A stretch of DNA of 20,866 bases, from the IMG/VR virus record IMGVR_UViG_3300017971_003441, positions 1 through 20,866 of that record, one strand, 5' to 3'. The first letter of the stretch is position 1. Every line of letters starts with the position of its first letter. Both the position numbers and the translations under genes were made by a program. The DNA is from a virus. Shown piece by piece: positions 1,848 to 20,649 of the stretch. Under the pieces are notes generated by a model. That model did no database searches and was not told where the DNA came from. It saw only the letters and a program-made list of their open reading frames with translations.

Positions 1848-2718
1848 CCCTTGCGGCTACGCTCGCTACAAGTTTCAGGATGTGATTCGCACGCTGCCGG
1901 AGGATCGTGGCAAGCTCGCGACACCGCCTGACGTTTACCTTTGTTCCCACGCGCTGTTGTTGAAGCGACCGGATGTTGTGCCGAAGGGTTGCAAGGTGGT
2001 AGCTTGGAAAGAGTCGCTCCGGTTGCTGGATGACCAAGTGCTCGCCGACATGGCTGATCTGATTGTCGGCTACGTCTGGAAGCCAAAGGATTGGACATTC
2101 CGCAATGTCAAAGTGCGACCGGGGCACCTGGAAAACGTCGCGCACAAATACCTCCAAGTCCCCTGGCTCTGTCATGACCGGGTGCTGGAGGCGCTGCACT
2201 CCGCAAAGCTGACGAACGCTTACCTTGACGATGATCTGCCCGCCATCCGGTCGCGGTTCGGATCGACCGAGAAGAAACGGAAGGTCGGCTTTATCGGCCA
2301 TCGCCTCCCCCACCGAAGTAAGATCATGGAGCGGGTAGAGGCGGCCTTCGGTTTCGAGATCAAGCGGTGGGCTGGCGGGCACGATCCCGGCCTGCCACCC
2401 GGCGAATACCTCCGGTGGCTGACCGAGTGCGAGCTGAACCTCAACCTGGAAGGCGACACTTGGGGGTGCTCCCGGCTGGCCGAGTGCGCGATGATGGGGG
2501 CCGCTGTTGTCCAGTGTCGGCCTGACCGCTTCGATTATGACCCCCCTATATCGGCCGAGAACGCTATCGTGTGCAATGATTGGGCAGACGCCCCGACAAT
2601 ACTCGCCGGGCTCGACAGGGCCCCAGACGCTGCCAGGGGGGCCTCGGAGGCGTATTGCGGGGGCTGGAGCCTCCGAGGCCAGCTCAACCGGGTCTTTGCC
2701 CGCCTGGGGGTGGCCTGA
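1726..2718 (+). CDS. GT-B-type glycosyltransferase-like protein (divergent)
   Basis: A 330-residue protein starting at GTG, eight bases after agaaagga. The N-terminal half begins with a strand and a helix rich in R-L-x-x-L-A-x-x-x-H-x-M-G-H (residues 22-35), typical of the first Rossmann unit of GT-B enzymes. The second half starts with KVGFIGHR (186-193) and contains LNLEGDTWGCSRLAECAMMG (239-258), which resembles the nucleotide-sugar-binding region of exostosin and CgeB-like glycosyltransferases. It lacks the exact E-x7-E motif of the GT4 neighbours. The start is favoured because the first strand would be lost with any later start. The stop shares one base with the next ATG. The donor and acceptor are unknown. 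Confidence 0.65.
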   Translation: MRIAVNPKVYRVKYPRQRKTRRLIYLAAIAHRMGHKVRIHNPCGYARYKFQDVIRTLPEDRGKLATPPDVYLCSHALLLKRPDVVPKGCKVVAWKESLRLLDDQVLADMADLIVGYVWKPKDWTFRNVKVRPGHLENVAHKYLQVPWLCHDRVLEALHSAKLTNAYLDDDLPAIRSRFGSTEKKRKVGFIGHRLPHRSKIMERVEAAFGFEIKRWAGGHDPGLPPGEYLRWLTECELNLNLEGDTWGCSRLAECAMMGAAVVQCRPDRFDYDPPISAENAIVCNDWADAPTILAGLDRAPDAARGASEAYCGGWSLRGQLNRVFARLGVA

Positions 2719-3710
2719 TGCGCACCCCCCTCTTGGTGTATGACGTGAATCGGTGGGCTTGGCACTATCGGGCCACCGATACCGCAGCGGCAGCTCCGCC
2801 AGGGATCGACCCCACCACGATGCAGGCCAGCACGTTCCTCGCGCATGTCGGGGATCGTGGGTTTTGGGATCGGTATGATTCGCTATTCTTTATGAGTTGG
2901 GCTGGCTGCCCGATTGATCGAATACGCAAGTCGAGTTGTCGCCGCCTTGTTACGCTCGTCACGTCCGCTGGTCCCGCCTTTCGGGCCCTCGACGGAGATG
3001 ATTGGCGAACCTGGATCGTCACCGGCTCGCGCAACTTCGGCAACGCTCACTCAAAGCTGCCGAGGTTCGATGCGATCATTACAGTCAATCGGTTCCTCTA
3101 TGACGCTTGCCGGAAGCATACAGACGGTGAAGTTCGGATGATTCCAAGCGGCGTGAATTGCGAGTTGTTCCGACCGGCCGAGCAACCGCAGCCGGAAGGT
3201 CGCCCGTTTCGCGTTGGCTGGTGCGCGAATATCAAGGGCACGCATACCGTTAAGGGCCACCGCGAGATTCTCGTTCCGCTGATGTCGGAGCGGCCGGAGT
3301 GGGACTGGCAGGTCAACACGAACGATAGGCGCAGCGCATGGCCTCGCGAAGAAATGGCTGCATGGTATCGGACGCTGGACGCTTTTCTATGTACGAGCGT
3401 CATCGAGGGTACCCCCTCGCCAGTTTTCGAGGCTGCCGCATCAGGGGTGCCGATTGTCTCAACTGATGTTGGCTGCGTGGAGGATTGGCCGCTCCCTCAC
3501 GAGCTTGGTTTGATCGCCTCGCCATACCGCAACCCCGTCGAGGCGCAGGCAACGCAAAACCAACTACTTGACACGCTGACCGGCCTTTCCAGGCTTACCG
3601 CAGACGAGCGCCGGTCGCTTGGGCTCCAACTCCGGGCGGATGTCGAGCAGCGGTACAGCTACGAGGTGATTGCCCCGCAATACTTGGAGGTGATATGTCC
3701 AGAGTCCTAG
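2718..3710 (+). CDS. GT4-like glycosyltransferase, paralog 1
   Basis: This 330-residue protein is one of three related glycosyltransferases in the operon. The N-terminus LLVYDVNRWAWHYRA (5-19) carries the shared YDVxxWA signature. A linker strand PSGVNCELF (143-151) precedes the C-terminal Rossmann domain with VGWC (166-169) and a KGHREIL-type helix. The donor-binding motif E-x7-E is EGTPSPVFE (230-238), followed by AASGVPIVSTDVG (240-252), as in retaining GT4 enzymes. The chosen ATG overlaps the upstream stop (TGATG); a longer upstream extension in this frame would run into the previous gene and has no homologous look. The 3' end overlaps the next gene by 16 bases. Confidence 0.8.
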   Translation: MRTPLLVYDVNRWAWHYRATDTAAAAPPGIDPTTMQASTFLAHVGDRGFWDRYDSLFFMSWAGCPIDRIRKSSCRRLVTLVTSAGPAFRALDGDDWRTWIVTGSRNFGNAHSKLPRFDAIITVNRFLYDACRKHTDGEVRMIPSGVNCELFRPAEQPQPEGRPFRVGWCANIKGTHTVKGHREILVPLMSERPEWDWQVNTNDRRSAWPREEMAAWYRTLDAFLCTSVIEGTPSPVFEAAASGVPIVSTDVGCVEDWPLPHELGLIASPYRNPVEAQATQNQLLDTLTGLSRLTADERRSLGLQLRADVEQRYSYEVIAPQYLEVICPES

Positions 3711-4720
3711 TGGTCTATGACGTAGATGGGTGGGCGCAGCATCGGTTCGCCTCTGGCGTGGCGAAATATGCGCCGGAAGGTATGGAGGTTGTAACGTGCG
3801 ATACACCCGGTTACTTGAACCGGATGGAGCCGGAGGACCGCGCGAGGTTTGACGGGGTCTGCACGCCCTTGTTTGCCAGCTTCAAGAAGCCGGGCTGCAA
3901 GCGGCTCGTCGCGTTGCTGGCGTCTCACGCGCTGATGCACGATGCCTACGATCCCAAGAATTTCTTGACGCTCGGCGTCACCAAGGATCGCCACCGTCGG
4001 CTGGCTCGGAAAATCCTGACACGGGCCGATGCCGCAATCGCTCGCAACAATGCTCTGGCTTCCTCGCTTCGTCCATACAACACTCGGATTCAGGTCATCC
4101 CAGCGGGAGTCGATGTCGAGATATTTCATCCGCGAGGCCGGACACCTACACCCCACGGCAAGCTACGAGTCGGCTGGTGTGGGAACAAGCATTGCAAACT
4201 CAATCGGAACTTCAAGGGGTACGAGCATATCCTGCGACCTTTGATGTCGCGACCGTTTGCAAGCGACTTCGAGTGGCAAATAAACACTCGTGATTTTCGC
4301 AATGCCTTGTCTCCACCCGAAATGGCTCAGTGGTATCGGTCGCTCGACGTTTTTCTCACCACGGCGTCTGCCGAAGGTACACCGAATCCACCGATGGAGG
4401 CCGCCGCTTGCGGCTGCTGTGTCCTCGCAACGAACGTGGGGCAACTGAGTGATTGGGGCGAACTACACAGTCGACAGCTCTTGCTTCCAACTTACGAGAA
4501 CGACGAGGAAGCGCGCGGGGTTGTGCGGCTGTTCGAGCAAGAGTTGTCCCTGTTGAATCGCGACCGGGAGCGATTGCGAGAGTGCGGCGAGGCCCTGGCC
4601 GCCAGCATCCAGACGCGATATTCCTACGAGCATATCGCTCCGCGAGTCATAGCCCATGTCGCCGGAATAGATCGCCCGAAACTCATTAAGTATACAAGCC
4701 GAGACAGGCACGCGCGATGA
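3695..4720 (+). CDS. GT4-like glycosyltransferase, paralog 2
   Basis: A 341-residue GT-B protein closely patterned on its neighbour. It opens with VLVVYDVDGWAQH (4-16) and KYAPEGMEV (24-32). It shows the interdomain strand VIPAGVDVEIF (134-144), then LRVGWCGN (157-164) and NFKGYEHILRPLM (172-184). The E-x7-E motif is EGTPNPPME (227-235), followed by AAACGCCVLATNVG. These are the expected positions for nucleotide-sugar binding in GT4 enzymes. A strong ggaggt RBS lies 4-5 bases before the ATG. The stop overlaps the radical-SAM gene start as ATGA. The protein has no membrane anchor or signal, so it should act in the cytoplasm. Acceptor unknown. Confidence 0.8.
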   Translation: MSRVLVVYDVDGWAQHRFASGVAKYAPEGMEVVTCDTPGYLNRMEPEDRARFDGVCTPLFASFKKPGCKRLVALLASHALMHDAYDPKNFLTLGVTKDRHRRLARKILTRADAAIARNNALASSLRPYNTRIQVIPAGVDVEIFHPRGRTPTPHGKLRVGWCGNKHCKLNRNFKGYEHILRPLMSRPFASDFEWQINTRDFRNALSPPEMAQWYRSLDVFLTTASAEGTPNPPMEAAACGCCVLATNVGQLSDWGELHSRQLLLPTYENDEEARGVVRLFEQELSLLNRDRERLRECGEALAASIQTRYSYEHIAPRVIAHVAGIDRPKLIKYTSRDRHAR

Positions 4721-5952
4721 TCCACTTCGTCTATCCGCCACGACCGTATCTTATTGAGCCAAACGCCCAAGTTGGCCTCGGCCTATTGATGCTCGCAACC
4801 TATGCCCGAAACCTTGGGCTCCCTGTTGCTGTTCACAACTGGCAAGATGGCTTTGGCGACACCAACCTTCTCCGTGCGGCCGAGGATATTATCTGCGTGA
4901 CCGGCTGCTTGGCCGATGCTCGCGAGATCAATCGGCTTATCGCAGCCTATCCCGGTCGCGTGATTGTGGGCGGCCCCATCTCCTGCTCGCCAGATATTGT
5001 CCACGCGAAGGCAAGGCTCATTGTCGCCGGGCCTGGGGAATGGCTGATCGAGTCGATTGCAGGAGGGACAATCCCGTGCGCCCGTGTGCTCAACACTCCG
5101 CCCATGCAAGACTTCGACCGCTACCCATTCCCTGACCGTCGTTTACTCGGCGAGCATCTCGGTGGGCGGATTTTTCACCGGGTTGCTGGGGTCACTCCGC
5201 AGCCGTCAACAACCCTGGTCACGTCGCGAGGGTGCCGCTTCACTTGCGCGTTCTGTGAGTCAGGCCACAGTAAGACATTGCATGAATATCATTTGTCCCG
5301 CATCGAGATGGAGTTGGATGACATCGCTCGCCTCGGCATCAAGCATGTTCGGATCGGCGATGACAACCTGAACGCCACGCCACGCCGTCGCCGCAAGCTG
5401 ATCGACATGCTAGCACTCCACAAGATGAAATGGAGGGCGAGCCTACGGGCTGCCCCATCCAGCCTACAACTCTTTACGAGGATGCGCGATGCCGGATGCG
5501 TGGAGCTGAACATCGGCCTCGAATCCGCAGACCCGGCTGTGCTGCTGCGGATCGGCAAGCGGTCTACGGTGTCGCGGATCACTACTGCGATTGAGGAAGC
5601 GGTCGAAGCCGGAATACCTAACGTGCGAGCCTTAATGATGATGGGTACGCCGGGAGAAACGCGCGACACGCTGACCTTCAACAAGCGATGGGTGGAGGCT
5701 CACCCAGACGTGACGGTTTGCCTCACAGCGTTCTATCCTTTCCCAAACACCAGCATCGCGTTTCGGCCCGAAGAATACGGTGTCCGGCTTCGGACCACGC
5801 GAAACGTCAATTTCTACTCCTGGCGTCCTGACGGCTCGGAGCCGGACGCTCACATAGACATCATCGGCGGGCTTTCCCGGCAGCAACTAACCGCGCAGCT
5901 CCGCGAGTTCCGGATGTTCCTCGATTCGCGAGAGCAGCTCAACCACGGATGA
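4717..5952 (+). CDS. Radical SAM protein with cobalamin-binding-like N-terminal domain
   Basis: A 411-residue protein. Residues 1-120 follow the pattern of the cobalamin-binding domain in B12-type radical SAM enzymes: QVGLGLLMLATYAR (18-31), RVIVGGPISCSPDI (81-94) and AGPGEWL (104-110). I do not see the cobalamin-ligating DxHxxG motif. The radical SAM core has the cluster motif CRFTCAFC (Cys 173, 177, 180), then GDDNLNA (214-220), GLES (267-270) and MGTPGET (309-315), the typical core strands. Relatives include methylases and ring-forming enzymes, but the reaction here cannot be read from sequence. It could modify a sugar or a methyl acceptor for the neighbouring transferases. It is joined by ATGA overlaps on both sides, indicating operon membership. 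Confidence 0.85.
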   Translation: MIHFVYPPRPYLIEPNAQVGLGLLMLATYARNLGLPVAVHNWQDGFGDTNLLRAAEDIICVTGCLADAREINRLIAAYPGRVIVGGPISCSPDIVHAKARLIVAGPGEWLIESIAGGTIPCARVLNTPPMQDFDRYPFPDRRLLGEHLGGRIFHRVAGVTPQPSTTLVTSRGCRFTCAFCESGHSKTLHEYHLSRIEMELDDIARLGIKHVRIGDDNLNATPRRRRKLIDMLALHKMKWRASLRAAPSSLQLFTRMRDAGCVELNIGLESADPAVLLRIGKRSTVSRITTAIEEAVEAGIPNVRALMMMGTPGETRDTLTFNKRWVEAHPDVTVCLTAFYPFPNTSIAFRPEEYGVRLRTTRNVNFYSWRPDGSEPDAHIDIIGGLSRQQLTAQLREFRMFLDSREQLNHG

Positions 5953-6476
5953 TCGACATGCACCCAAACTGCCAAGCGATCTGGAAAGAACATTGCCTAC
6001 AATACTTCAAGCCGGGAATGACGGTGCTTGAAGCGGGGCCGAACCTAAGCGGTAGCTGGTACAAGAACAACCACCCCGACGGAAAGCGGCTCATCTGGGA
6101 GACAGTGGATATTCGCGAGGACCGCTCCCCAACAGGTCGCTTGCACGACGTAACTCACACAGGCACCGCCTACTCCTATCCAGTCCCGGCAAACTATTAT
6201 GATGTCGTCTTGGCTGTTATGGTCGCCGAGCACGTCCCAATGCCGTGGCGATGGGTGCCGGAGCTTGCCCGCTGCTGCAAGGTGGGCGGTCGCGTTATTC
6301 TCATCGCTCCCTTTGTTGGTCAAGAGCATGGGGATCAGGATTACTGGCGGTTTCTGCCTCGCGGTTTGCGCGTGCTGGCCGAAGAAGCGGGGCTTGAGGT
6401 TTGCAAGGCCGAGGTGATGGACTTGGTGCCGGATGACTACCACATTGACTGCCTTCTTGTCGCGAGGAAACCATGA
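5949..6476 (+). CDS. SAM-dependent methyltransferase-like protein (Methyltransf_11 type)
   Basis: A 175-residue single-domain protein. Motif I is VLEAGPN (26-32), a variant without the full GxGxG turn. VDIRED (53-58) gives the acidic residue at the end of the second strand. YYDVVLAVMVAEH (83-95) is the characteristic strand of the Methyltransf_11 family, and KVGGRVILIAP (111-121) is the strand after it. PFVGQEHGDQDYWRF then resembles the active-site loop of methyltransferases found in glycan clusters. The start overlaps the radical-SAM stop and the stop overlaps the next start (both ATGA). The most likely role is methylation of a sugar or glycan, from context only. Confidence 0.75.
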   Translation: MIDMHPNCQAIWKEHCLQYFKPGMTVLEAGPNLSGSWYKNNHPDGKRLIWETVDIREDRSPTGRLHDVTHTGTAYSYPVPANYYDVVLAVMVAEHVPMPWRWVPELARCCKVGGRVILIAPFVGQEHGDQDYWRFLPRGLRVLAEEAGLEVCKAEVMDLVPDDYHIDCLLVARKP

Positions 6477-7435
6477 CTGACATTTCGCTCGGATTCGTCT
6501 ACCGCAAAGGGAACCCGTACCTGAACAACATGCGGGCGCAGGTGAACATGCGGAAGCTGTTCTTCGTCGCCTTGCCTCGGCAACTCGGTGTGACGGTCGA
6601 GTATTACGGGAGCCCAGACGTGCTGGACCTCAAGCACGTCGCCGACAAGCATGATGCGTGGTTGTTCTTTGATGCAGTTGGTTGGGGTATTCCGAAGTTG
6701 TTGAATTGGGAGAAGCTGCGAGGGCCGAAGTTCTGTCATATCGGAGACAGTCACGGAGCGGCGAAGGTTTGCCCGGTCTACGGTAAGACCAAGCTGGAAC
6801 AATGCCGCGAGTTCGCCTTTGACGCCTATTTCTTTCAGCATCACCCCGAGTATTTCTATCGGTTCTTTCCTCGCGATTGGACTTATTGGTGGGTGCCGAT
6901 GGGGGTCGATTGGACGCTTTACAATACTCGATCCGGCAAGCCGTGGGAATTGCGACGGAAGGACAAGGTGCTCTTGACCGGCGTGGACGGCCCCGAATAC
7001 TACCCGCTGCGCACGAGGCTCCGGCATGACGCAAGGATTCATTACAATCAGCCGGGAGGCTACCAGGGGGACAGCTACTCCCCTGGTCAATACGACGGAG
7101 AACGATACCCTGTCCTGCTCGGCCAGTGGAGGGCGAGCGTTGCGAGCGGGTACTCGATCCTAAATAAGTGTTTCGAGGTCGCGGCCGGTGGGTGCCTGAA
7201 CCTGATCGAGGTAACGGAGGACAACGGCTGCGGCCTGATCGGATACCAGGACGGAAAGACAGCGGTGTTCATCACCCCGCAAACAGCGAGCGACAAGATC
7301 GACGAGTTTCTCGCCGATGCGGACAATCCTCGCTGGCAACAGATAGCGATGGCCGGTCGCGAGTTCGTCCTCAACAACTACACTCACATGAATTGCGCGG
7401 CCCGGCTGGTCGAGCATATCAGGAGGTCGCTCTGA
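6473..7435 (+). CDS. CgeB-like glycosyltransferase, paralog A
   Basis: This 320-residue protein has the layout of the CgeB or Glyco_trans_1_2 group. The N-terminal part includes WLFFDAVGWGIPKL (63-76) and FCHIGDSHG (87-95). The C-terminal domain begins with KVLLTGVDGPEYYPLR (165-180) and contains NKCFEVAAGGCLNL (231-244), where family members carry the Glu that contacts the nucleotide sugar. The end matches the family's usual capping helix with an RLVEHIR-like finish. A similar VLLxGVxxPxxYPLR element occurs in the gene at 9002, so the two are probably paralogs. It is coupled by ATGA upstream and TGATG downstream. Substrates unknown. Confidence 0.75.
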   Translation: MTDISLGFVYRKGNPYLNNMRAQVNMRKLFFVALPRQLGVTVEYYGSPDVLDLKHVADKHDAWLFFDAVGWGIPKLLNWEKLRGPKFCHIGDSHGAAKVCPVYGKTKLEQCREFAFDAYFFQHHPEYFYRFFPRDWTYWWVPMGVDWTLYNTRSGKPWELRRKDKVLLTGVDGPEYYPLRTRLRHDARIHYNQPGGYQGDSYSPGQYDGERYPVLLGQWRASVASGYSILNKCFEVAAGGCLNLIEVTEDNGCGLIGYQDGKTAVFITPQTASDKIDEFLADADNPRWQQIAMAGREFVLNNYTHMNCAARLVEHIRRSL

Positions 7436-8028
7436 TGCCACCCTTTGTCATACCAGAACGGTGCCGCGACTTGGCGGCGCTCCAAGTGTCGCAATACCCA
7501 GACGACCCTTCGGCTTTCGACTGGATCACCGAGCGGGAACTGGACGCCTTCTTGCCGAAGATCGACAAGCCTCGCCGCGTGATTGATCTCGGCTGCGGGC
7601 TCGGGCGAGTTGCCTGCGGGTTGCACATGGCCTACAATGATCCTGAGATCGAGTACATCCTTGCGGATGCAAACCGACACGATGGGCCACCGGCTACGGG
7701 CTGGAACCCTGGCGAAGAATGGTACAATCTATTTGAGCTGACGGTCGAGTTTTGCGAAGCGAACGGCTTGCGAAACTATCGCACTTGGGACTTGTTGAAA
7801 CACCCGCACCCGCCAGATGCCGACCTAACGGTGTCGATGCTGTCGGTGGGGTTCCACTGGCCGCTCAACGATTGGCTGAAACCTTGGACAAAGACGGAAC
7901 AGATGGTCTTCGGCTGCCGCGCGGGCATCTACTCGGCAGGCCCGTTCGCGCCGCACTTCCGATCCGTCGAGGTTGCGCCGGGCTTCTGTGACAAAGAGGA
8001 GATTTTCATTTTGAAAGGGATGCAGTGA
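7435..8028 (+). CDS. SAM-dependent methyltransferase-like protein
   Basis: A 197-residue protein with a textbook motif I, VIDLGCGLGRV (49-59), and a second-strand acidic end in ILADANR (75-81). DADLTVSMLSVGFHW marks the fourth strand region, where class I enzymes have the catalytic face. The remaining C-terminal strands (FGCRAGIY, SVEVAPGF, EEIFILKG) fit the Rossmann methyltransferase fold. I use the ATG that overlaps the previous stop (TGATG, after an aggagg RBS at 7421-7426). An upstream extension in this frame would run deep into the previous gene. It differs in sequence from the other two methyltransferase-like proteins, so it may act on a different position. Confidence 0.75.
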   Translation: MPPFVIPERCRDLAALQVSQYPDDPSAFDWITERELDAFLPKIDKPRRVIDLGCGLGRVACGLHMAYNDPEIEYILADANRHDGPPATGWNPGEEWYNLFELTVEFCEANGLRNYRTWDLLKHPHPPDADLTVSMLSVGFHWPLNDWLKPWTKTEQMVFGCRAGIYSAGPFAPHFRSVEVAPGFCDKEEIFILKGMQ

Positions 8029-9005
8029 AGTTATTGCTGATCTACGATGTTCCCGGCTGGGCTTTCCACCACATTGGCACCGGCCTACAAAAGTATGCGC
8101 CCGACGGATGCGAATTGACCCTCGTTTCGCACGAAGGGTACTACGCCGACTATTTTGAGCACCCCAGCGCTTGCGAACCGTTCGATGCGGCAGTGGCCTT
8201 GTCGATCTACACAGCAAGGGGGGAGATACGGCCGTGGTTTGCCTTCGCTTGTTCGCACGCCTTCCGCTTCGCAACCAAAGAGGAGTCCGACTGGCGGACT
8301 CGCGGCGTGAATCCGAACCGCTGCGAAAGTGCGGCGCGAAGTTTTCTGTCAGACGAGGTGGACTGGGTGTTTGCGTGCTGCTCGGAGGTCCAAGAGGCGT
8401 TTACTCGCCACGCAGACCGAGTGAGCTTGCTGCCGCAAGGATTGGATGACACGGTATTCTTCCCACGGAAGCGGAATCGCAGCGGCAAACTCCGCGCTGG
8501 GTGGTGCGGGCAAAGGTACGCGAACTTCAAGGGCTACGCCGAGATATTGTGCCCGCTGATGGCTCAAACGAGTGGGAAGTGGAGTTGGGAGATTAACAGG
8601 CGAGGATACCAGGGGGCGCGAACCCCGTTGCAGCAAGCCGAATGGTATCGGTCGCTCGATCTGTTCGTCTGTACCAGCATCGCCGAGGGTGGCCCCTTGC
8701 CTCCGTTCGAGGCTGCGGCGTGCGGTGTGCCCGTGCTGACAACCGATGTCGGTTCGGTCAAGGATTGGAAGATGCCGGAGGGCCCGTGGCGGGTCAAACC
8801 CTATCGTGATCGCCGAAGTGCAAGGGCAACCGTGAACCGGATGGCCCAAGTAATGTCATCTTTTGAGCCGGACCCATCGCTCGGCCGGGAGTTCGCCGAG
8901 AGTATCCAGCGGGATTGGACGTGGCGAGTTATTTCGCCTCGGTGGTGTGCGGAGCTTTCGCGATTACTGGCAACGTGGCCGGAATGGAAAGGAGAGACAT
9001 TGTGA
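8025..9005 (+). CDS. GT4-like glycosyltransferase, paralog 3
   Basis: A 326-residue protein starting at GTG within a GTGA overlap. It opens with LLLIYDVPGWAFHH (3-16) and KYAPDGCEL (23-31), almost the same layout as the gene at 3695. The interdomain strand is SLLPQGLDDTVFF (134-146). LRAGWCGQ (156-163) and NFKGYAEILCPLM (167-179) follow. The E-x7-E motif is EGGPLPPFE (221-229), then AAACGVPVLTTDVG. Conserved features of GT4 donor binding are therefore intact. It is separated from its two paralogs by four other genes, so the duplication is old or the cluster was shuffled. Predicted soluble and cytoplasmic; specificity unknown. Confidence 0.8.
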   Translation: MKLLLIYDVPGWAFHHIGTGLQKYAPDGCELTLVSHEGYYADYFEHPSACEPFDAAVALSIYTARGEIRPWFAFACSHAFRFATKEESDWRTRGVNPNRCESAARSFLSDEVDWVFACCSEVQEAFTRHADRVSLLPQGLDDTVFFPRKRNRSGKLRAGWCGQRYANFKGYAEILCPLMAQTSGKWSWEINRRGYQGARTPLQQAEWYRSLDLFVCTSIAEGGPLPPFEAAACGVPVLTTDVGSVKDWKMPEGPWRVKPYRDRRSARATVNRMAQVMSSFEPDPSLGREFAESIQRDWTWRVISPRWCAELSRLLATWPEWKGETL

Positions 9006-9961
9006 CGAAGATTCTCGTACTGTTCCCAAGGCAACTCTGGACCCGCAAGCAAAGCCCCGTCAGGCGACACGCGATTCTCGCCCTGCAAAGGCGCGATGAT
9101 ACCACCGTCAAGATCAGCGGGCAGGGGTGGCCCGACTGGCGGCATGACATCGACGGTGGCGCGGTCGCGATGATTGAACACCTGATGCCGGATGCCGACG
9201 CTGTGTTCTGGTACAAGCCGCTCGGGGCCAAGGGTATTCCGCCACTTATTGACTCACAAGCTGTAAAAGACCGCTGGTTGACGGTCGAATCTTTCAACGA
9301 GTGCTGGTGGCCCGACCATCGGGCGGAGCGTGAAGCGACGGAGGCGGGCACGTCACTAGTGATCTGCCACCACGCGAACGATCAGCAGCAGTTTCGGACG
9401 CTGCCGACGGTTCACATTCCGCATTGCGCCGAGAAGTCGATCTTCGCCAAGGCCGCGAAGCCTTGGGAGAAACGCGATATAGATGTTCTGCTGTGCGGCG
9501 TTCAGAGTCCGAGCATCTATCCGCTCCGCGCGAAGTGGCTCGAACTCTTCAAGGCTGGCAAATTGCCGGGGCGTGCTCATTATCACGAACGCCCACCCTA
9601 TCGGGCGAAGAACCTTGCGGCCTGCGATGACTTGGTTGCCGAGTACGCCTCCCTTCTCGGTCGATCTAAGATCGTTCTCGGCTGCTCGTCGCGATATAGG
9701 TACGCCCTTGCGAGGTTTCCTGAAGCGGCGATGGCGGGAGCGCTTCACTTGAGCGACATGCCGCACAATGCGCCACCATTCTACGCCGATTTTATCTGGC
9801 CACCGACTGACGGGGCTCTGGTGGACCATGTGAATGAGTGCCTGTGCGTACTCAACGAACTTGACGGCTGCACACCGATCCATGACCTCGCAAAGCAGTT
9901 TTACAGCCAAGAGGTCTACGCCGAGAAATTTCTTCATGCGGTGTCGGAGCGGTCGACGTGA
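9002..9961 (+). CDS. CgeB-like glycosyltransferase, paralog B
   Basis: A 319-residue protein. I choose GTG at 9002, which overlaps the previous stop as GTGA and gives a natural first strand, TKILVLFPRQLW (2-13). Longer in-frame starts lie inside the preceding gene. The middle contains DVLLCGVQSPSIYPLR (161-176), matching the gene at 6473, and FPEAAMAGALHLSD (239-252) corresponds to the nucleotide-sugar-binding segment of CgeB-like proteins. No E-x7-E motif is present. It is the last clearly enzymatic gene of the plus-strand operon; 41 bases separate it from the next gene. Function as a glycosyltransferase is likely, donor and acceptor unknown. Confidence 0.65.
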   Translation: MTKILVLFPRQLWTRKQSPVRRHAILALQRRDDTTVKISGQGWPDWRHDIDGGAVAMIEHLMPDADAVFWYKPLGAKGIPPLIDSQAVKDRWLTVESFNECWWPDHRAEREATEAGTSLVICHHANDQQQFRTLPTVHIPHCAEKSIFAKAAKPWEKRDIDVLLCGVQSPSIYPLRAKWLELFKAGKLPGRAHYHERPPYRAKNLAACDDLVAEYASLLGRSKIVLGCSSRYRYALARFPEAAMAGALHLSDMPHNAPPFYADFIWPPTDGALVDHVNECLCVLNELDGCTPIHDLAKQFYSQEVYAEKFLHAVSERST

Positions 9962-10581: not shown

Positions 10582-10867
10582 GCCACGACTCGCACTCCGC
10601 AGCAAAGCGGCCCTTCCAGCCAACTAAGGCCCAGAACCAGAAGCGGCGCGTTGAGCAACCACGATTCATCTTGGCGCAATTCCCACTGGTGAAGTGTTTG
10701 CAATCCTGGCAGATCGAAAACCGCCGCTCGATCTCCGGCATGTCGTACAGCGTTTTCCCTGCCTCGACGGCTTCGGCTGCGCGGTACAGCGTCACGTCGC
10801 TGTATCGCTCTCCACCGCTGAGAACCTCCGCCCGATGACGGAGAAACCGTCGTATTGAGTCATTCAT
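10547..10867 (-). CDS. Small Cys-rich (zinc-knuckle-like) phage protein
   Basis: A 106-residue protein. The start is fixed by an ATGA overlap with the upstream gene (10864-10867); an earlier start in the same frame would enter that gene. Residues 1-50 are helical and charged. Residues 63-82 contain the cluster SICQDCKHFTSGNCAKMNRG plus a following Cys, so two CxxC-like pairs could bind zinc or iron. This C-x2-C spacing is common in small proteins near phage tail genes, though their role is not known to me. It is the last gene of the minus-strand operon and ends inside the convergent plus-strand gene. It could be a tail-tip or accessory protein. Confidence 0.6.
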   Translation of the reverse strand: MNDSIRRFLRHRAEVLSGGERYSDVTLYRAAEAVEAGKTLYDMPEIERRFSICQDCKHFTSGNCAKMNRGCSTRRFWFWALVGWKGRFAAECESWLIPHRQTQSAE

Positions 10868-11466
10868 ACCGCCGTGATGGTGCAGGTGGCTGAGGAGAAA
10901 TCGCACGCCGTCATCGTATCGGTCAGCGGATCGTATGTCAATGATTCGGCGCTCAAGCTACAATCGGGCTTACTTGCCCACTCTTTGTAGAAATCGACGG
11001 TGGTAGTTGCGCCATGCTGACTGTAAAGCGCGGCCTGGACGAGGATGCCGTAATTGCCGAGAAGCGTATACCAGTAGACCTGGATCAGATAACTTTGTGT
11101 GCCACACCCGTCTCCGCAATCATGTCCTGGGGTGTCATAATCGCTCGCTCCGGGTCCAGGGTAGTACATGAGGCAATTATTCACGGGCTCATCTGTGCTC
11201 GGAATCGCACGGAAGGTATCGTTCCAGTACGACGTGCAGTAAGCGGCTGTGTTGCATGTTCCGTTCGCAACCGAGGCGAAGGTCACATCGTAACCATCAG
11301 GCATTCCACCCGTGCAATAATCGCAAGGCGGGCCTCCTTCGCAACAGCAAGGGTAGCCGTAGCCGTACTCGCGAAAGAGCGGGAGTCGTCGCCGGTCGCG
11401 GCGTGGGCGGAAGTCGAGCGGGTCGCCGGGCCTCCACAATGTCTTGTCTGGAGTCCACAGTTTCAT
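10864..11466 (-). CDS. Cys-rich putative virion protein, tail-tip region
   Basis: A 200-residue protein starting at the ATG that overlaps the previous stop (ATGA at 11463-11466). The first 35 residues are basic. Then comes a dense cysteine patch, PCCCEGGPPCDYCTGGMPDG (around residues 39-58), and a beta-rich C-terminal region with more cysteines (GHDCGDGCGTQ) and several aromatic residues. The patch followed by a VTF strand is a pattern I associate with phage or prophage proteins of Planctomycetota. Disulfides or metal binding would both fit. By position, after the tape measure and two other late proteins, it probably belongs to the tail tip or fibre. No enzyme motif is seen. Confidence 0.6.
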   Translation of the reverse strand: MKLWTPDKTLWRPGDPLDFRPRRDRRRLPLFREYGYGYPCCCEGGPPCDYCTGGMPDGYDVTFASVANGTCNTAAYCTSYWNDTFRAIPSTDEPVNNCLMYYPGPGASDYDTPGHDCGDGCGTQSYLIQVYWYTLLGNYGILVQAALYSQHGATTTVDFYKEWASKPDCSLSAESLTYDPLTDTMTACDFSSATCTITAV

Positions 11467-12419
11467 GCCGGGCAGGGACCAACCAACGTGTCCCAATCCT
11501 CCTGTTCATCATTCCAGCCGAGGATCACAACGGCATTGTTGTCAAGCTCGCCGCCTGCCTGATTGTTCCCTTCTGTCGGAGCGGCTCCATCCGAACTCAT
11601 AAAGAGCGCGGTGTCCAGCGGCTGCATTATTGTCACATTGTCGATATTGTAGGTTGAATCGGTCGTGGCCACGCCACCAGCCTCATTCACCAAGGCCCGG
11701 ATCATCGTGGCGTGCGGTTGAAGTTTTTCGATCTCCCAAAGCTGGGAGTCGCCGAAATACCGAGCGCGACCCCGCGACCCAGCACAGACTCCGGCGTTCC
11801 GCGCGCGGCCACGAAACTCGGAGTGGCGATCATAAACCTCGAACTCGATGTCCGTGTTCGGGGTGAGGGTGCCGGACAAATCTTCAAGCAGGTAGGCCGT
11901 CGCTTGCCCACCAGGGGCCAGGGCGTCCTTCAATTCAAACCGCCACACGCTCAAAGGCGGCGCGAGCGATTCCCAGCGGCCCGATTGTTTTGACAGGCCA
12001 GCCACGAGTCTGTCGCCGCTTCCCCATCGCTCAATTCCAATCGCTATGCCCGAGTCGTTTCTGTGGACGTTTGGGCAGTAGAGCGTCCTGTCGTCATCGG
12101 TGAACGTCTGGTAAGTGTAGTCCGTCGGATGGTATCGCACGATCCGGCAGTTTTCAACCCACGGGACATCCGGTTCGCTGGCACTCCCAGCCGTCCGAGT
12201 TGGGTCAGGCCACTGCATCGCCTCGGTCAGCTCGAACATTTCAACTCGGCTGTACGCTTGACCCGTGACGGTGATACCACCAGGGCCTGCGCCGACAGCT
12301 ACGCCGCCTGCGCCAGCCACCTTGCCAGCCATCGCCGCTTGCTGCATCGCAGCGTTCATTCCGCTGGCCGAGGTTTGCCCCCACTTCTGACCCTTTTTGA
12401 ACTGCGGTAGTGGTTTCAT
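11463..12419 (-). CDS. Putative tail-tip or fibre structural protein
   Basis: A 318-residue protein. I choose the ATG at 12419, four bases after the previous stop; an upstream extension would run about 140 bases into the neighbouring gene. The first 45 residues are an Ala, Gly and Gln-rich segment (KKGQKWGQTSASGMNAAMQQ, then AGGVAVGAGPGG), like a flexible or coiled connector. The rest is strand-rich, with WRFELKD, LWEIEKLQPHATMIRALVNE and an acidic, Asn-rich end before a final GPC. This architecture (connector plus beta-rich body) fits a distal tail or fibre protein, inferred from its place downstream of the tape measure. No specific family named. Confidence 0.6.
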   Translation of the reverse strand: MKPLPQFKKGQKWGQTSASGMNAAMQQAAMAGKVAGAGGVAVGAGPGGITVTGQAYSRVEMFELTEAMQWPDPTRTAGSASEPDVPWVENCRIVRYHPTDYTYQTFTDDDRTLYCPNVHRNDSGIAIGIERWGSGDRLVAGLSKQSGRWESLAPPLSVWRFELKDALAPGGQATAYLLEDLSGTLTPNTDIEFEVYDRHSEFRGRARNAGVCAGSRGRARYFGDSQLWEIEKLQPHATMIRALVNEAGGVATTDSTYNIDNVTIMQPLDTALFMSSDGAAPTEGNNQAGGELDNNAVVILGWNDEQEDWDTLVGPCPA

Positions 12420-13286: not shown

Positions 13287-15530
13287 CTATTCCGCCATTC
13301 CGGCATCGGTTTCCTCGGTGTTCTTCGCAATCTTTTCCAACGCTTGCAGCTTCTTGAGGTCGGCCGCTTGCGCCTCCTTGGCGAGCCGGAGTTTTTCCTT
13401 GTCGCGAGATTCCGCAGCCGGAGGAACGAGGCTCGTTTGGAGTGTTCGTGCGTAGTCTTGAAGTCCGGCGAAGCCAACCTGCTGTGCGGAAGTCTTCTGT
13501 TCCATGCCAGCAATGTCTTTGTCCCGTTTCTTTATGCGACCGCGAAGAGTCTCCATCTCGATCCGATCAAACTCGGACAGGCGGAGGTTGGTGCGCTCGC
13601 TTGCCAAGTCTGCGAACGCCTTGTCCCACGTCCGCTCAAAGTCCGTCGGTTGCTCGCCGTACTTTGCTCGCCGCCGCCGCTCAATGTATGCGGCCTGCTG
13701 CCCTGCTCGCAGCGATTGCTTTTGGTCTGCCGTCATGCCGGGTGCTCGCTTTACGCCTCCCCCAGCTTCGTAGTTCGGCGCGAAGGGATACTCAGCCTTA
13801 CCGCCCTTCTTGAACATCGCGTCTATGTCGCGAGATACTCTATCGTATTCACGCTCCAACAATGTTAGTTCCTTGCGGGCCTCGCGCTTCATGTCCTCTT
13901 GGATGTTGCCAGTCCATTTCTCGGGCGAGGTCCAGTAGAAGCCGAGTTGCTCTGCCGCGCTCGGGCCGTCTGACTCATACCGCTTTACCTTCAACTCGGC
14001 CTTACGCTTCTGCCTCCCCAGCTCATTTCGCAGGTTCATGGCATTATTGAAGCGCCGCTTGGCTTTTTCAGGGTCGTTTGGATCATCCGGCTTTTGCGCA
14101 GCGGCCCGCAGTTTTTCGAGTCTGATCTGCTCTTGGGTCGCCTTATTCAATCCGAGCATCGCGCTGATGTTGTCCTTCAAGACCTCCTCGAACGCCTTGC
14201 CGGTCATCTTCGATTCGATCCACGCACCCCCAAGCGCGGTTACAGCAGCGGTGAGTGCAATAACAGCGACCACGGCCGGGTTGAGCGCGGCACCGGACAT
14301 GAGAGCGACAAGGCCCTTCATCGCCATCGCGACCTTCGGCATTGCAATCAAGAGCAAGAGCACCTTCCCGGTCAGTGCCGCTGTACTTAGGGCGTTCTTG
14401 ATCGAGGCTTCATCCCAGCGGGCCAGTCCGCGAGCCCATTCTTGAACCACCTTGACGGTGCTACGAAGCGTCGGAATCATCTTCTCGCCAAAAGCAATCG
14501 CTGCCGACTCGACCGCAGACTTCATAATGATGAACTGGCCTTGGAGCGTATTGAGTTGTATCTCGGCGATTCGCCTTGCTGTACCACCCGCACCCCTTAG
14601 CCGTTCCTCGAACTGCTTAATTGTCGCCCCGCCTTGCTCCATTAAGGCCATAAAGCCGGAGACGGCTCGGATGCCAGCGATCTGGCCGATAATCGCGTTC
14701 TTCTCGACCTCGCCCATGTGCTCCGTCGCCCTGGCTACGTCATCCACAATGTCCCCAAGGTGCCGCATCTGCCCGGTTTGATCCTTGACGGTAATGCCGA
14801 GCTTCTTGATCCCCTCTCCCACCTTGCCCGGCTGAATCTGGAGCCGAAGCAACATATTTCGGAGCGACGTGCCAGCCATCTGGCCTTGGATGCCAGCGTT
14901 CGACATAATCTGAATAGCGGCCGTCAATTCCTCGATGTCTTTACCGGCCGACTTGCCGACGGGCCCGACGTACTTCATTGCATCGCCGAGCATCGGCAGA
15001 TCGGTATTCGCGCTCGTGAACGCCTTGGTCAGAACGTCGACCGTATGCGTCAACTCGCTCGCTTCGATCCCCATGCCCGCCATGATCTTGGCGGTGATGT
15101 CTGCCGCCTGCGCCACATCCATCTGACCGGCAGCCGCGAGATCGAGGGTCGCTGGCATAGCCGCCATAATCTTTTCGGACTTGAAGCCTGCCAGGGCGAA
15201 GAACCCCATCGCCTGCGATGCTTGCCTTGCGGTGAAAACGGTCGTTGCGCCAAGCTCTCTCGCTTGATCCGACATGGCGCGAAACGCCTCGCCCGTTTCG
15301 CCGGTCAGAGCCTTCACTCGCGCCATCCCCTGCTCGAACCCACTCGCAACCTTCGCGATTGCACCGAACCCGGCCGTGCCGAGCAAGAGGGCGATCTTAG
15401 CTTTGTTCGCTACCGCTTGCATCTTCTTAATGCCGGTGGTGAAATGGGCGTGCGCGGTCGCCATGCCAGCCTTGAAGCCCTTTTGATCGACGAAGATATA
15501 GGCGAACGCCTCGCCGAGCGTGATTGGCAT
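13287..15530 (-). CDS. Tail tape measure protein (TP901-type core)
   Basis: At 747 residues this is the longest protein in the window. Residues about 60-370 follow the phage tail tape measure core: an alanine-rich helical stretch with GATTVFTARQASQAMGFFAL, ADITAKIMAGMGIEASELTH, VDVLTKAFTSANTDLPMLGD and AGTSLRNMLLRLQ. A hydrophobic segment of two or three helices follows (about 395-440). The C-terminal third is charged and probably coiled. It sets tail length and is ejected during infection in known siphoviruses; at roughly 1.5 angstrom per residue this one would predict a tail near 110 nm (inference). It sits directly downstream of the tail assembly chaperone, as expected, and an annotation tool should find it easily. 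Confidence 0.93.
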   Translation of the reverse strand: MPITLGEAFAYIFVDQKGFKAGMATAHAHFTTGIKKMQAVANKAKIALLLGTAGFGAIAKVASGFEQGMARVKALTGETGEAFRAMSDQARELGATTVFTARQASQAMGFFALAGFKSEKIMAAMPATLDLAAAGQMDVAQAADITAKIMAGMGIEASELTHTVDVLTKAFTSANTDLPMLGDAMKYVGPVGKSAGKDIEELTAAIQIMSNAGIQGQMAGTSLRNMLLRLQIQPGKVGEGIKKLGITVKDQTGQMRHLGDIVDDVARATEHMGEVEKNAIIGQIAGIRAVSGFMALMEQGGATIKQFEERLRGAGGTARRIAEIQLNTLQGQFIIMKSAVESAAIAFGEKMIPTLRSTVKVVQEWARGLARWDEASIKNALSTAALTGKVLLLLIAMPKVAMAMKGLVALMSGAALNPAVVAVIALTAAVTALGGAWIESKMTGKAFEEVLKDNISAMLGLNKATQEQIRLEKLRAAAQKPDDPNDPEKAKRRFNNAMNLRNELGRQKRKAELKVKRYESDGPSAAEQLGFYWTSPEKWTGNIQEDMKREARKELTLLEREYDRVSRDIDAMFKKGGKAEYPFAPNYEAGGGVKRAPGMTADQKQSLRAGQQAAYIERRRRAKYGEQPTDFERTWDKAFADLASERTNLRLSEFDRIEMETLRGRIKKRDKDIAGMEQKTSAQQVGFAGLQDYARTLQTSLVPPAAESRDKEKLRLAKEAQAADLKKLQALEKIAKNTEETDAGMAE

Positions 15531-15533
15531 AGC

Positions 15534-15788
15534 CTACCCTTTCTTCTTCTTCCGGCGTTTCTTCAACCAGTCTTTCCGCATCCTCTTCCACTCGGACCCG
15601 CTGACCAGTCGCGTGCCGGGGCCGAGGTCTTTTTCATCGGCGAGATAGCTGCGTATCTGATACAGCGTCATCTTTCCGACCTGCGCGGCTGTGAATCCAT
15701 AACCTTCGCCGAGCGCCCTTATGATGCGTCGCCAGGGGAATGCTCCTTCTTCTCGCCCTCCCCCTCCGACGGGTTCGGGCCAGTCGAG
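15534..15788 (-). CDS. -1 frame extension of the tail assembly chaperone (GT part)
   Basis: This 84-residue stretch has no start codon before its conserved part, so it is easily missed. It begins after a slippery site and reads LDWPEPVGGGGREEG, FPWRRIIRALGEGYGFTAAQ, VGKMTLYQIRSYL, and ends with a very basic tail (KKRRKKKKG) at TAG. The content looks like a genuine folded module typical of the T half of gpG/gpGT-like chaperones. The frame is open upstream to a TAA at 15906-15908, so a shift must occur between there and the zero-frame stop at 15719. The fused product would have 265 residues (181 + 84). Its stop lies three bases before the tape measure ATG. I infer translation only by frameshifting. 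Confidence 0.8.
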   Translation of the reverse strand, partial: LDWPEPVGGGGREEGAFPWRRIIRALGEGYGFTAAQVGKMTLYQIRSYLADEKDLGPGTRLVSGSEWKRMRKDWLKKRRKKKKG

Positions 15789-16330
15789 TTTCCCAAGCCG
15801 TCCTCCCCGGATGGTCGACCGAGCTGGCTTTGCATCGTGTCGACGAGTAACGACTCGGCCGCTGCCGCCGCCTCCTCTCCGGTCAGCTCTGTGTTCTTGA
15901 GGATGTTATCCAGCACGCGCTCAAACTCGTTGAGCAGCTCGGCGAGAATGGATTGTGGCGTCAACTCCTTGCATGATGTGAGCGGGTTCTCTGGATCGTA
16001 GTTAGGATCGTTGTGTCTAATCTGTATCCAGGTGCAATACGCCAGCCCATTCATCGAGTCCATCCACTCTGACAACTCCTTGCGGGTGACGCTCTTGACT
16101 CGGCACCGTTCCGCCATCGCCACTTCGAGCACCTGCTTGGTGAACTCTGGGTTATTGTCGCTGCTCATCGTCAACAGCTCTTTTGCAGCGACGAGCGGAT
16201 TTGCGCGGAGTGAAAGGAGGTGATCTTCCATCTCGGCGTAATGCTCGGCGATTCGTGGCCGAACACTCATCGTTTTACCCGCAAAGGTAAAGGTTGTCGG
16301 CGCAGCGAATGCGCGATTCGCACCATCCAT
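15719..16330 (-). CDS. Tail assembly chaperone, short form (G-like)
   Basis: A 203-residue protein with a strong RBS (GGAGG on the minus strand, eight bases before ATG). Residues 10-45 start with a PTTFTFAGKTMSVRPRIAEH strand-helix unit. The middle is helical, and residues 145-203 are Ala, Glu and Gly-rich and acidic, with no fold signature. Tail assembly chaperones of lambda-like phages are made in a short and a frameshifted long form, placed between the tail tube and tape measure genes; this gene occupies that position. The zero frame ends at TAA (15719-15721). The last 22 residues lie after the slippery site and are dispensable filler by appearance. A -1 shift replaces them with an 84-residue module. 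Confidence 0.85.
   Translation of the reverse strand: MDGANRAFAAPTTFTFAGKTMSVRPRIAEHYAEMEDHLLSLRANPLVAAKELLTMSSDNNPEFTKQVLEVAMAERCRVKSVTRKELSEWMDSMNGLAYCTWIQIRHNDPNYDPENPLTSCKELTPQSILAELLNEFERVLDNILKNTELTGEEAAAAAESLLVDTMQSQLGRPSGEDGLGNSTGPNPSEGEGEKKEHSPGDAS
15755..15780 (-). promoter_or_regulatory. Possible stimulatory stem-loop 3' of the slippery site
   Basis: Seven bases after the slippery heptamer, on the minus strand, GCCC (15780-15777) can pair with GGGC (15758-15755). An inner CCC (15773-15771) can pair with GGG (15764-15762) around a six-base loop. The spacing of seven bases matches known stimulatory structures. The pairing is short and the surrounding bases are G-rich, so alternatives exist and this remains a weak inference. 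Confidence 0.35.
15788..15794 (-). promoter_or_regulatory. Programmed -1 frameshift slippery heptamer GGGAAAC
   Basis: On the minus strand the zero-frame codons are TTG GGA AAC, giving G GGA AAC, a canonical X XXY YYZ heptamer very close to lambda's G GGA AAG. In the -1 frame the codons become GGG and AAA. It is the only heptamer of this class I found between the -1-frame stop at 15906 and the zero-frame stop at 15719. It is in register with codons 180-181 of the short form. Confidence 0.8.
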
Positions 16331-16369: not shown

Positions 16370-16771
16370 TCAAGACGGATCGGTGACAGCACCGTGGCTC
16401 TGGTAGTTGGCTGTCCAGCGGATCGGCTCACCAGACGCGGCATCGACCGCAACCTGGAAGCTGGTAATCTCGAGGGTCAGCGTGTAGAACCGTGCGTCGC
16501 CACCCGTGACTGTCGAGAGGTAAAGCTCGGCGCTGTACTGCGAGCCGACCGCCAGCTCGTCCTCGGCCGGATCATCGAAGTCGTAGGGCCCTTCGAGTGT
16601 TCCGGTTGCACCCTTGGCACCCGAGCTGGAGTATTTCCAGCCGCTTGAGCCAAAGGTCGGAAAATGACCGGTGTCGGCTGCGATCTCCATGTCCCACTTG
16701 TCGGCGTAGGCCAGGATGTTCTCGCCAGCCTTGATGCGGCCGTATTTTCCTGTGCGGTAATCGTCACTCAT
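16370..16771 (-). CDS. Putative major tail tube protein
   Basis: A 133-residue protein. GKYGRIKAG (8-16), W26, FGSSG (40-44), KGATGTLEGPYDF and the ending EPIRWTANYQSHGAVTDPS (115-133) match the single-domain siphovirus tail tube pattern, in which an FQSxGAV-like C-terminus is common. It is not preceded or followed by a sheath gene, consistent with a non-contractile tail. A strong RBS (AGGAGAG) lies six to seven bases before the ATG. The 91-base gap upstream holds a row of stem-loops, the only such gap in the operon, perhaps to set mRNA abundance of this highly used protein. Identification is by pattern and gene order, not by an alignment. Confidence 0.75.
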   Translation of the reverse strand: MSDDYRTGKYGRIKAGENILAYADKWDMEIAADTGHFPTFGSSGWKYSSSGAKGATGTLEGPYDFDDPAEDELAVGSQYSAELYLSTVTGGDARFYTLTLEITSFQVAVDAASGEPIRWTANYQSHGAVTDPS

Positions 16772-16821: not shown

Positions 16822-16863
16822 AGTTGGTCTGGTACCTTCCAACGCTCGGGGTCTGCGGAGCGT
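16822..16863 (-). repeat. Two additional inverted repeats in the tail tube leader
   Basis: Directly 5' (on the minus strand) of the terminator-like hairpin lie two more perfect inverted repeats. One is CGCTC/GAGCG (16862-16858 with 16847-16843), extendable by one A-T pair. The other is GTTGG/CCAAC (16843-16839 with 16827-16823), with the palindrome GGTACC in its loop. Each is a five- to six-base stem. They nearly touch, so the leader could fold as three consecutive stem-loops. Confidence 0.45.
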
Positions 16864-17438
16864 CAGCGTGTGCCAACGAGAATTATGTCGTACTCAATAT
16901 CACCGCCGCTTGCAGCGGAGCCATCCCAAGCGATCTCCAGGATGTCTCCCGTGCCAGCGGTCACCTTAATTCCATCGACAGGCGCAGTCAATACTAAAAC
17001 ACCCCCCGAGCGAACCCTTGTCTTCGCGTTTGCTACGTCGTTGAGCCATTTCTGCCATGCGTTTGAGGACGCCCCCCCCACAAGAAGGTCTTGTCCAGCG
17101 GCCGTGGTCCATGAGTCGTCATCCGAGCCGTCGTTGCCAGCAGCGGGCAAGCCTTTGTTTTCGATCAGCATTGCGCGCACCGTGACAAACGTCAGGGCGT
17201 TGCCGTAGACATCGGTAAGGCTGCCCGCAAGATCGAGTTGGTCTGTCCCTGTGTTCGCTGTCAAGGTCCGGCGTGCGCGGTAGTGGAAGCGGCCGTTGTT
17301 CGCGCCATCCCCCTGCGTCAGAGCCATAACGTAGTGGTAGGCACCGCTGTCTTTCGGCGTGCTCAAACCAACATCGTCCAAGTCCTGAAAGGTCCAGCTG
17401 AACCGAAGATTCATTGTCGTGCTGAGTGTGGTGCCCAT
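16863..17438 (-). CDS. Conserved phage virion protein of unknown role
   Basis: A 191-residue protein starting at ATG 17438 (GTG at 17441 is an alternative, but the spacing to GGAGG favours the ATG; TGATG coupling with the previous gene). The body is beta-rich, with YHYVMALTQGDGANNGRFHY, LDLAGSLTDVYGNALTFVTV, WQKWLNDVANAK, VLVLTAPVDGIKVTAGTGDI and a final ILVGTR. This combination (LAGSLTDVxGN, then GGVLVLTAP and VTAGTGD) is one I know from hypothetical proteins in many phages, usually next to tail genes. It is located between the tail terminator and tail tube genes. Likely structural; specific function unknown. Confidence 0.75.
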   Translation of the reverse strand: MGTTLSTTMNLRFSWTFQDLDDVGLSTPKDSGAYHYVMALTQGDGANNGRFHYRARRTLTANTGTDQLDLAGSLTDVYGNALTFVTVRAMLIENKGLPAAGNDGSDDDSWTTAAGQDLLVGGASSNAWQKWLNDVANAKTRVRSGGVLVLTAPVDGIKVTAGTGDILEIAWDGSAASGGDIEYDIILVGTR

Positions 17439-17836
17439 CACCGTGCCTCCGAGTAACCGTATTGATAGTCAATTTCGCACCACCACAAACCCTCTTCTAT
17501 CTCGCTGTAACGGGTGGCTCGTTCTTCCAGCAGAAAGACGGAGATTCCGGTCACACTGAGTTGCGCCTCAATGTCCTTGAACACGTCGACCACGTGGTCG
17601 CGGTACGTCTTGCAAAGCTCTTGCGAGGCACCCTCGATGACGAAGGTGAACACGCCCGAGTGGAACCTGACCTTGAATCCATCGCGTATCTTTTCGTCCT
17701 CACTCACCTTGAGGACACAGAACGGGTTGTCTTCGCCACGTTTCGCATGGCCTTGGAACAGCTCGGAGAAGCCATCGGTCGATAGTTGCGAGTCGGCATC
17801 GAATCGCGTCTTGATTGTATCAAAGAAGGTAGCCAT
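17438..17836 (-). CDS. Putative tail terminator/completion protein
   Basis: A 132-residue protein in the classic place between the gp10-like protein and the tail tube. It begins with a helix (TFFDTIKTRFD) and then has alternating strands and helices, with FHSGVFTFVIEGASQELCKT, HVVDVFKDIEAQLSV and a closing WWCEIDYQYGY strand. The small alpha-beta sandwich with a long N-terminal helix fits the lambda gpU or HK97 gp10-neighbour tail terminator class, but the family is highly diverged and I rely on size, fold pattern and gene order. A strong AGGAG RBS lies six to seven bases before ATG. Coupled to the downstream gene by TGATG. Confidence 0.65.
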   Translation of the reverse strand: MATFFDTIKTRFDADSQLSTDGFSELFQGHAKRGEDNPFCVLKVSEDEKIRDGFKVRFHSGVFTFVIEGASQELCKTYRDHVVDVFKDIEAQLSVTGISVFLLEERATRYSEIEEGLWWCEIDYQYGYSEAR

Positions 17837-20187: not shown

Positions 20188-20649
20188 CTATCGTGAAAAA
20201 GTAACTCCGCCAGGGCCAGCTCTCACAAAGCTGGCATCGCCGGGACCACCCCGACTCGCTGCAAGGTCGCCGGGACCGATCCGCGCGAAACCCGCGTCAC
20301 CAGGGCCGTCGGGGGTCACGTCCGATCCCCCAGGCCCGTTCCTGGCCCATCCTGAGGCCCCAGGCCCCGCATACGCCACAGAAACGGCCCCAGGACCGCC
20401 CAGGGCACTCCCTAACGCACCCGCACCGAGGTACGCGATTGCAACACTCCCAGGCCCGTCCTCGACCAGGAGGGCGTCTCCGGGGCCACCCCGGCTTGCC
20501 GAAACATCGCCGGGACCGGCCGGGCTCCAGTCGGTGTCGCCGGGGTCACGGCGTGCGCCCGCTGGTTCGACCAGCATCGTGGCCCACTCGTCCACCGTCA
20601 TGCTGGCCCATTGGTCGACCGTCAGTGTTGTCCAGTAGAGTTGCGTCAC
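20188..20649 (-). CDS. GPG decapeptide-repeat protein
   Basis: A 153-residue protein that starts at GTG in a GTGA overlap with the upstream gene. Residues 1-28 hold a short duplication, TVDQWAS/MTVDEWAT. From residue 35 the rest is 12 tandem units of ten residues, with only the last short: DPGDTDWSPA, GPGDVSASRG, GPGDALLVED, GPGSVAIAYL, then further units of the same G-P-G start. The pattern is Gly-Pro-Gly, often Asp, then six variable residues, with Ser, Thr, Ala and aromatic side chains outward. This is not collagen (no GXY). A repetitive coil or solenoid on the virion surface is one possibility. No homolog recognised. Confidence 0.75.
   Translation of the reverse strand: MTQLYWTTLTVDQWASMTVDEWATMLVEPAGARRDPGDTDWSPAGPGDVSASRGGPGDALLVEDGPGSVAIAYLGAGALGSALGGPGAVSVAYAGPGASGWARNGPGGSDVTPDGPGDAGFARIGPGDLAASRGGPGDASFVRAGPGGVTFSR
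20191..20547 (-). repeat. 12 tandem 30-base units encoding GPG decapeptides
   Basis: The DNA behind the GPG protein is periodic at 30 bases. Each unit begins with a GGNCCNGG-like triplet run whose third positions vary (GGT CCC GGC, GGC CCT GGC, GGC CCA GGA). Unit 1 starts DPG and unit 5 starts GAG, the only two exceptions. The synonymous variation suggests age and selection at the protein level rather than recent slippage. Confidence 0.8.

Follow-up and report, generated by a model that had tools for sequence, protein, structure and literature searches.

In the stretch of viral DNA analyzed here (20,866 nucleotides, hereafter the window), the gene that precedes the tape measure gene ends at a stop codon, and a second reading frame without a start of its own continues from it toward the tape measure gene. 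The question raised by this locus is whether the second frame is reached by a programmed -1 ribosomal frameshift, as occurs in the lambda G/GT system, which is widely conserved among long-tailed phages (reviewed in PMC5009743). Frameshifted chaperone genes of this kind often stay unjoined in phage genome annotation (PMC10274946). The observation, initially made from the DNA letters of the window, is confirmed as a whole and the interpretation given to it by that sequence-only reading is supported: comparison with related contigs indicates that the gene of this uncultured tailed phage very probably yields a G protein and a GT protein by a programmed -1 ribosomal frameshift.

The Zero-Frame Gene, Its -1 Extension and the Neighboring Tail Genes

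Minus-strand positions 15719..16330 hold the zero-frame ORF, a putative G-type tail assembly chaperone of 203 aa. The extension in the -1 frame, a putative T-type module of 84 codons plus stop (15534..15788, minus strand), was delimited by its reading frame and its conservation. A slip on the heptamer described below would cause the last heptamer base to be read again and 84 more codons to be added, giving a fusion of 265 residues, and re-reading of the DNA agreed with the coordinates and lengths reported initially for the ORF, the fusion and the terminal stop. The stop codon of the extension is at 15536-15534 (minus strand) and is followed by a spacer of 3 nt and the ATG of the tape measure gene at 15530. 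The last upstream stop in the -1 frame is a TAA at 15908-15906; the frame had been described as open back to 15908, and its openness was verified with the limit corrected to 15905.

No ATG, GTG, TTG or CTG was found in the -1 frame of the window upstream of an ATG at 15671. This first start codon lies inside the conserved core of the extension, in line with the proposal of a protein-like module that lacks its own start. Such an extension would escape a gene caller based on start codons.

The tape measure gene (13287..15530, minus strand) is identified with certainty from its sequence matches (phrog_1533, 7e-94; PF10145, 3.9e-51). On the other side of the G/T locus, a gene for a probable major tail (tube) protein (16370..16771, minus strand) was assigned by its position and by a weak match to phrog_10528 (E = 0.0036). 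The resulting order, tail-protein-like gene, G/T and tape measure, bears out the location between tail tube and tape measure noticed at first, with a strong match on the tape measure side and a weak one on the tail protein side. Adjoining the tail protein gene is a gene of unknown function (16863-17441, minus strand) that matches phrog_22694 (5.3e-25).

The Slippery Heptamer

The heptamer G GGA AAC (15788..15794, minus strand) is in register with the zero frame and has the canonical slippery form attributed to it. It is the only strict in-register X XXY YYZ heptamer within the open -1 stretch, and its description as the sole one fitting the allowed region was accurate. The window has few in-frame heptamers of this form (Y = A or T), 6 among its 6682 codons, which corresponds to 0.046 heptamers expected by chance in the 62 permitted codons (P ~0.045). 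As the chance of a heptamer is about 4.5%, the window sequence on its own is merely suggestive; preservation of the heptamer in relatives argues for far more than chance.

Conservation in Independent Relatives

Contigs L002 and L003/L004 are >99.9% identical to the window at the DNA level and were given no independent weight. The independent relatives comprise the L005 group (L005/L006/L007), L017/L018, and L052. Members of the L005 group share ~71% DNA identity with the window over the tail genes (G, 67%; extension, 73-74%), and identities of G and T to the window are 41 and 48% in L017/L018 and 54 and 60% in L052. GGGAAAC is identical and occurs at the same place in all three, within a block, GAGGA(C/T)G(G/A)C(T/C)T-GGGAAAC-T(C/T)GACTGGCC, that is conserved in the window and the three relatives. 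A scan of viral contigs with this slip-site block returned exactly the window-group and relative contigs already found.

Past the zero-frame stop, where protein selection is possible on the -1 frame only, differences between the window and L005 number 17, 12, and 35 at codon positions 1, 2, and 3, respectively (third-position excess, p = 3.6e-4). Near the slip site, zero-frame codons are unchanged in excess between the window and L005 (11/15 vs 38/107 elsewhere in G, p = 0.003) and between the window and L017 (8/10 vs 25/57, p = 0.02), and the excess was not significant between L005 and L017 (p = 0.22). The zero-frame tail beyond the heptamer is partly conserved in the relatives as well. Both frames are protein-coding and conserved, and so is the slip site.

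In L005, a stop codon interrupts the -1 frame ~four codons 5' of the heptamer, therefore the frame change is confined to ~five codons including the heptamer; homology of the extension begins with the first codon past the slip. Both features weigh against the extension being a separate gene with its own internal start and no frameshift, a reading for which the SD-like GGGGAGGA and the ATG at 15671 could be invoked. This ATG is also preceded by the conserved LDWP...PWRR, with no standard start 5' of it in the window, and a separate gene is considered very improbable. The short room in L005 applies equally to a change of frame at another site or by transcriptional slippage, a mechanism used by some phage and bacterial genes (PMC5009743): GGGAAAC does not contain a long homopolymer and is the only strict heptamer of the allowed stretch, so that neither variant is given more than a slight chance.

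A different arrangement was found in L052, where the contig has G and T in a single frame and keeps the heptamer. One extra base is present in a G-rich stretch ~20-30 nt upstream of GGGAAAC (contig positions 4700-4760), and when this junction was sought elsewhere by a DNA scan, L052 alone was recovered. The sequence-only reading had named two outcomes that would speak against it, an extension without homologs in the -1 frame and related phages with a single intact frame and no slippery site. Homologs in the -1 frame were found together with the same slip site, and L052 is a relative with a single intact frame that has retained the heptamer. The kept heptamer and the conserved overlap suggest that its extra base is an error of the contig; L052 may instead be a natural fusion of G and T.

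L052 is also what would favor the view that the window carries one gene, split through mutational decay or faulty sequencing. Nevertheless, the same split occurs at the same base in three lineages (window group, L005 group and L017/L018) from different metagenome records, the zero-frame tail after the heptamer is conserved in part, and the indel of L052 is the likelier error because the heptamer is kept and the single extra base falls in a G-rich stretch. A broken gene is accordingly regarded as highly unlikely, and the programmed frameshift as the preferred reading.

Candidate Stimulatory Elements

A stem-loop is predicted by RNA folding 4 nt past the heptamer (15752..15783, minus strand), with a lower stem formed by CUGGCCC and GGGCGAG and an apical helix above it; similar stems were predicted in L005, L017, and L052. 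The 51 nt that follow the heptamer had folding energies of -20.7 kcal/mol in the window, -29.7 in L005, -21.4 in L017, and -26.5 in L052, with z-scores of -1.8, -3.8, -3.1, and -3.0, respectively. Ranked along 1200 positions, these folds were 13th in the window, 4th in L005, and 13th in L052; the stem of L017 is unexceptional, since it ranked 186th. Across the lineages the stem starts ~4-5 nt past the heptamer and pairs CUGGCCC with GGGCCAG in L005 and L052, has one mismatch in the lower stem of the window and takes a compressed version in L017. The sequence of the apical helix varies between lineages and its pairing is kept. Clean covariation is absent because the invariant 5' arm is also doubly coding.

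Upstream of the slip site, the SD-like sequence GGGGAGGA (15801..15808, minus strand) places GGAGG 7 nt 5' of the heptamer, and GAGGA is kept in the four lineages. By analogy with dnaX, it is plausible that the stem-loop and the SD-like element act as stimulators. A more tentative proposal, which we hold to be possible and rather doubtful, is that these genes form an unnamed tail-chaperone family with a dnaX-like stimulator pair (upstream SD-like element and adjacent stem-loop) kept across several uncultured phage lineages.

Family and Fold Searches

Tail chaperone proteins diverge fast. Neither half of the fusion gave a match above the cut-off in Pfam or PHROGs, and a tblastn search with the fusion in 50,697 phage records returned chance matches only, in phiKZ-like phages (E = 5). 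The structural model of G (pLDDT 73) consists of a beta hairpin and a helical bundle, followed by a low-confidence tail (residues 172-203) that bears the slip site and is probably disordered; the T model is of low confidence (pLDDT 60). The best BFVD match of the G model was an uncharacterized phage protein (E 0.007). Against the PDB the model found nothing convincing, and the Foldseek and VIA-align lists were without solved tail chaperones. Rfam and tRNA scans were empty. The name tail assembly chaperone, proposed at the outset, is suggested by position and architecture, which point to this function, and finds no direct family match in Pfam or PHROGs.

Candidate Frameshift Signals in a Wider Set of Loci

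The tape measure was used to gather loci (86 non-duplicate) in GTDB genomes and IMG/VR, and these were searched with an automated rule in which a slippery heptamer is located near the gene end and the -1 continuation must end at the tape measure. The heptamer/-1 rule was satisfied by 55 of the 86 loci, and 8 were obtained for a +1 shift. Permuted heptamer orders served as decoys, a test informative for the class with X not equal to Y only, in which the XXXYYY order was found at 14 loci vs a mean of 2.6 and a maximum of 9 for 19 decoy orders; GGGAAA was present at 11 loci and any permutation of it at 6 or fewer. Counts that include A6 or T6 runs were poorly separated (55 real vs 42-48 permuted), and these runs are poorly judged by decoys because they count in every order. 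Many T-rich matches of the screen, for example TTTTTTC with a long zero-frame tail, may be coincidental. The arrangement recurs in distant loci whose tape measures are related, with one or the other of two heptamers in several of them: the same G GGA AAC is carried by L016, whose tape measure is 44% identical, and L014 and L015 have A AAA AAC instead. A profile of T detected no similarity in the A AAA AAC group.

Proposed Mechanism and Relation to Known Systems

Slippage, its efficiency and the chaperone roles of the products are what we infer from these comparisons. The majority of ribosomes would complete the 203-aa G protein, and a minority would shift by one base into the -1 frame on G GGA AAC to produce the 265-aa GT protein, aided probably by the downstream stem-loop and perhaps by the upstream SD-like sequence. 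By analogy with lambda, G would coat the tape measure protein, and tail tube subunits would be recruited by the T part, with neither G nor GT expected in the finished virion.

The window gene resembles lambda G/GT in gene order, with the tape measure directly after it, and in the predicted low-abundance C-terminal extension that a -1 shift close to the end of the first of the two frames would add. It differs in that its halves match no curated chaperone family and in its heptamer, G GGA AAC; that of lambda G/GT is reportedly G GGA AAG. In its layout, its slip site and the missing start of its extension, the window gene has what defines a lambda-type G/GT gene architecturally. Because these features fit and the sequence families do not, the locus is viewed as a divergent member of this known kind. 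The g-t gene of the haloarchaeal tailed virus HCTV-1 is of the same kind and has the same G_GGA_AAC (PMC5009743), although HCTV-1 is, unlike the window phage, an archaeal virus, and the likeness rests on its published description. Escherichia coli dnaX combines an upstream SD-like element with a downstream stem-loop, as is possible in the window phage; it is a different gene, with A AAA AAG, ~1:1 products and stimulators proven by experiment (PMC5009743).

The -1 frameshift is a well-known device of tailed phages and the picture of tail building is unchanged. The locus contributes a name for a chaperone pair whose two proteins, in this phage lineage, have no match among known families, and it adds a clear example, based on comparison, of frameshifting on G GGA AAC.

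Other Genes in the Window

A block of glycosyltransferase genes extends over 2580-9961 on the plus strand, opposite to that of the head and tail genes. It includes genes at 2580-3710, 3695-4720, 6473-7435, and 8025-9005, with a weak assignment at 8915-9961, and encloses genes for a radical SAM protein (4717-5952; PF04055, 1e-19) and a methyltransferase (5949-6476). The block is possibly sugar-modifying cargo on a phage contig. On the minus strand, the gene at 10864-11496, near where the tail gene block ends, predicts a protein with a cysteine-rich stretch (CCCEGGPPCDYC). Another minus-strand gene, at 20188-20649, predicts a glycine-, proline- and alanine-rich protein of short repeats built around GPG/GPGD.
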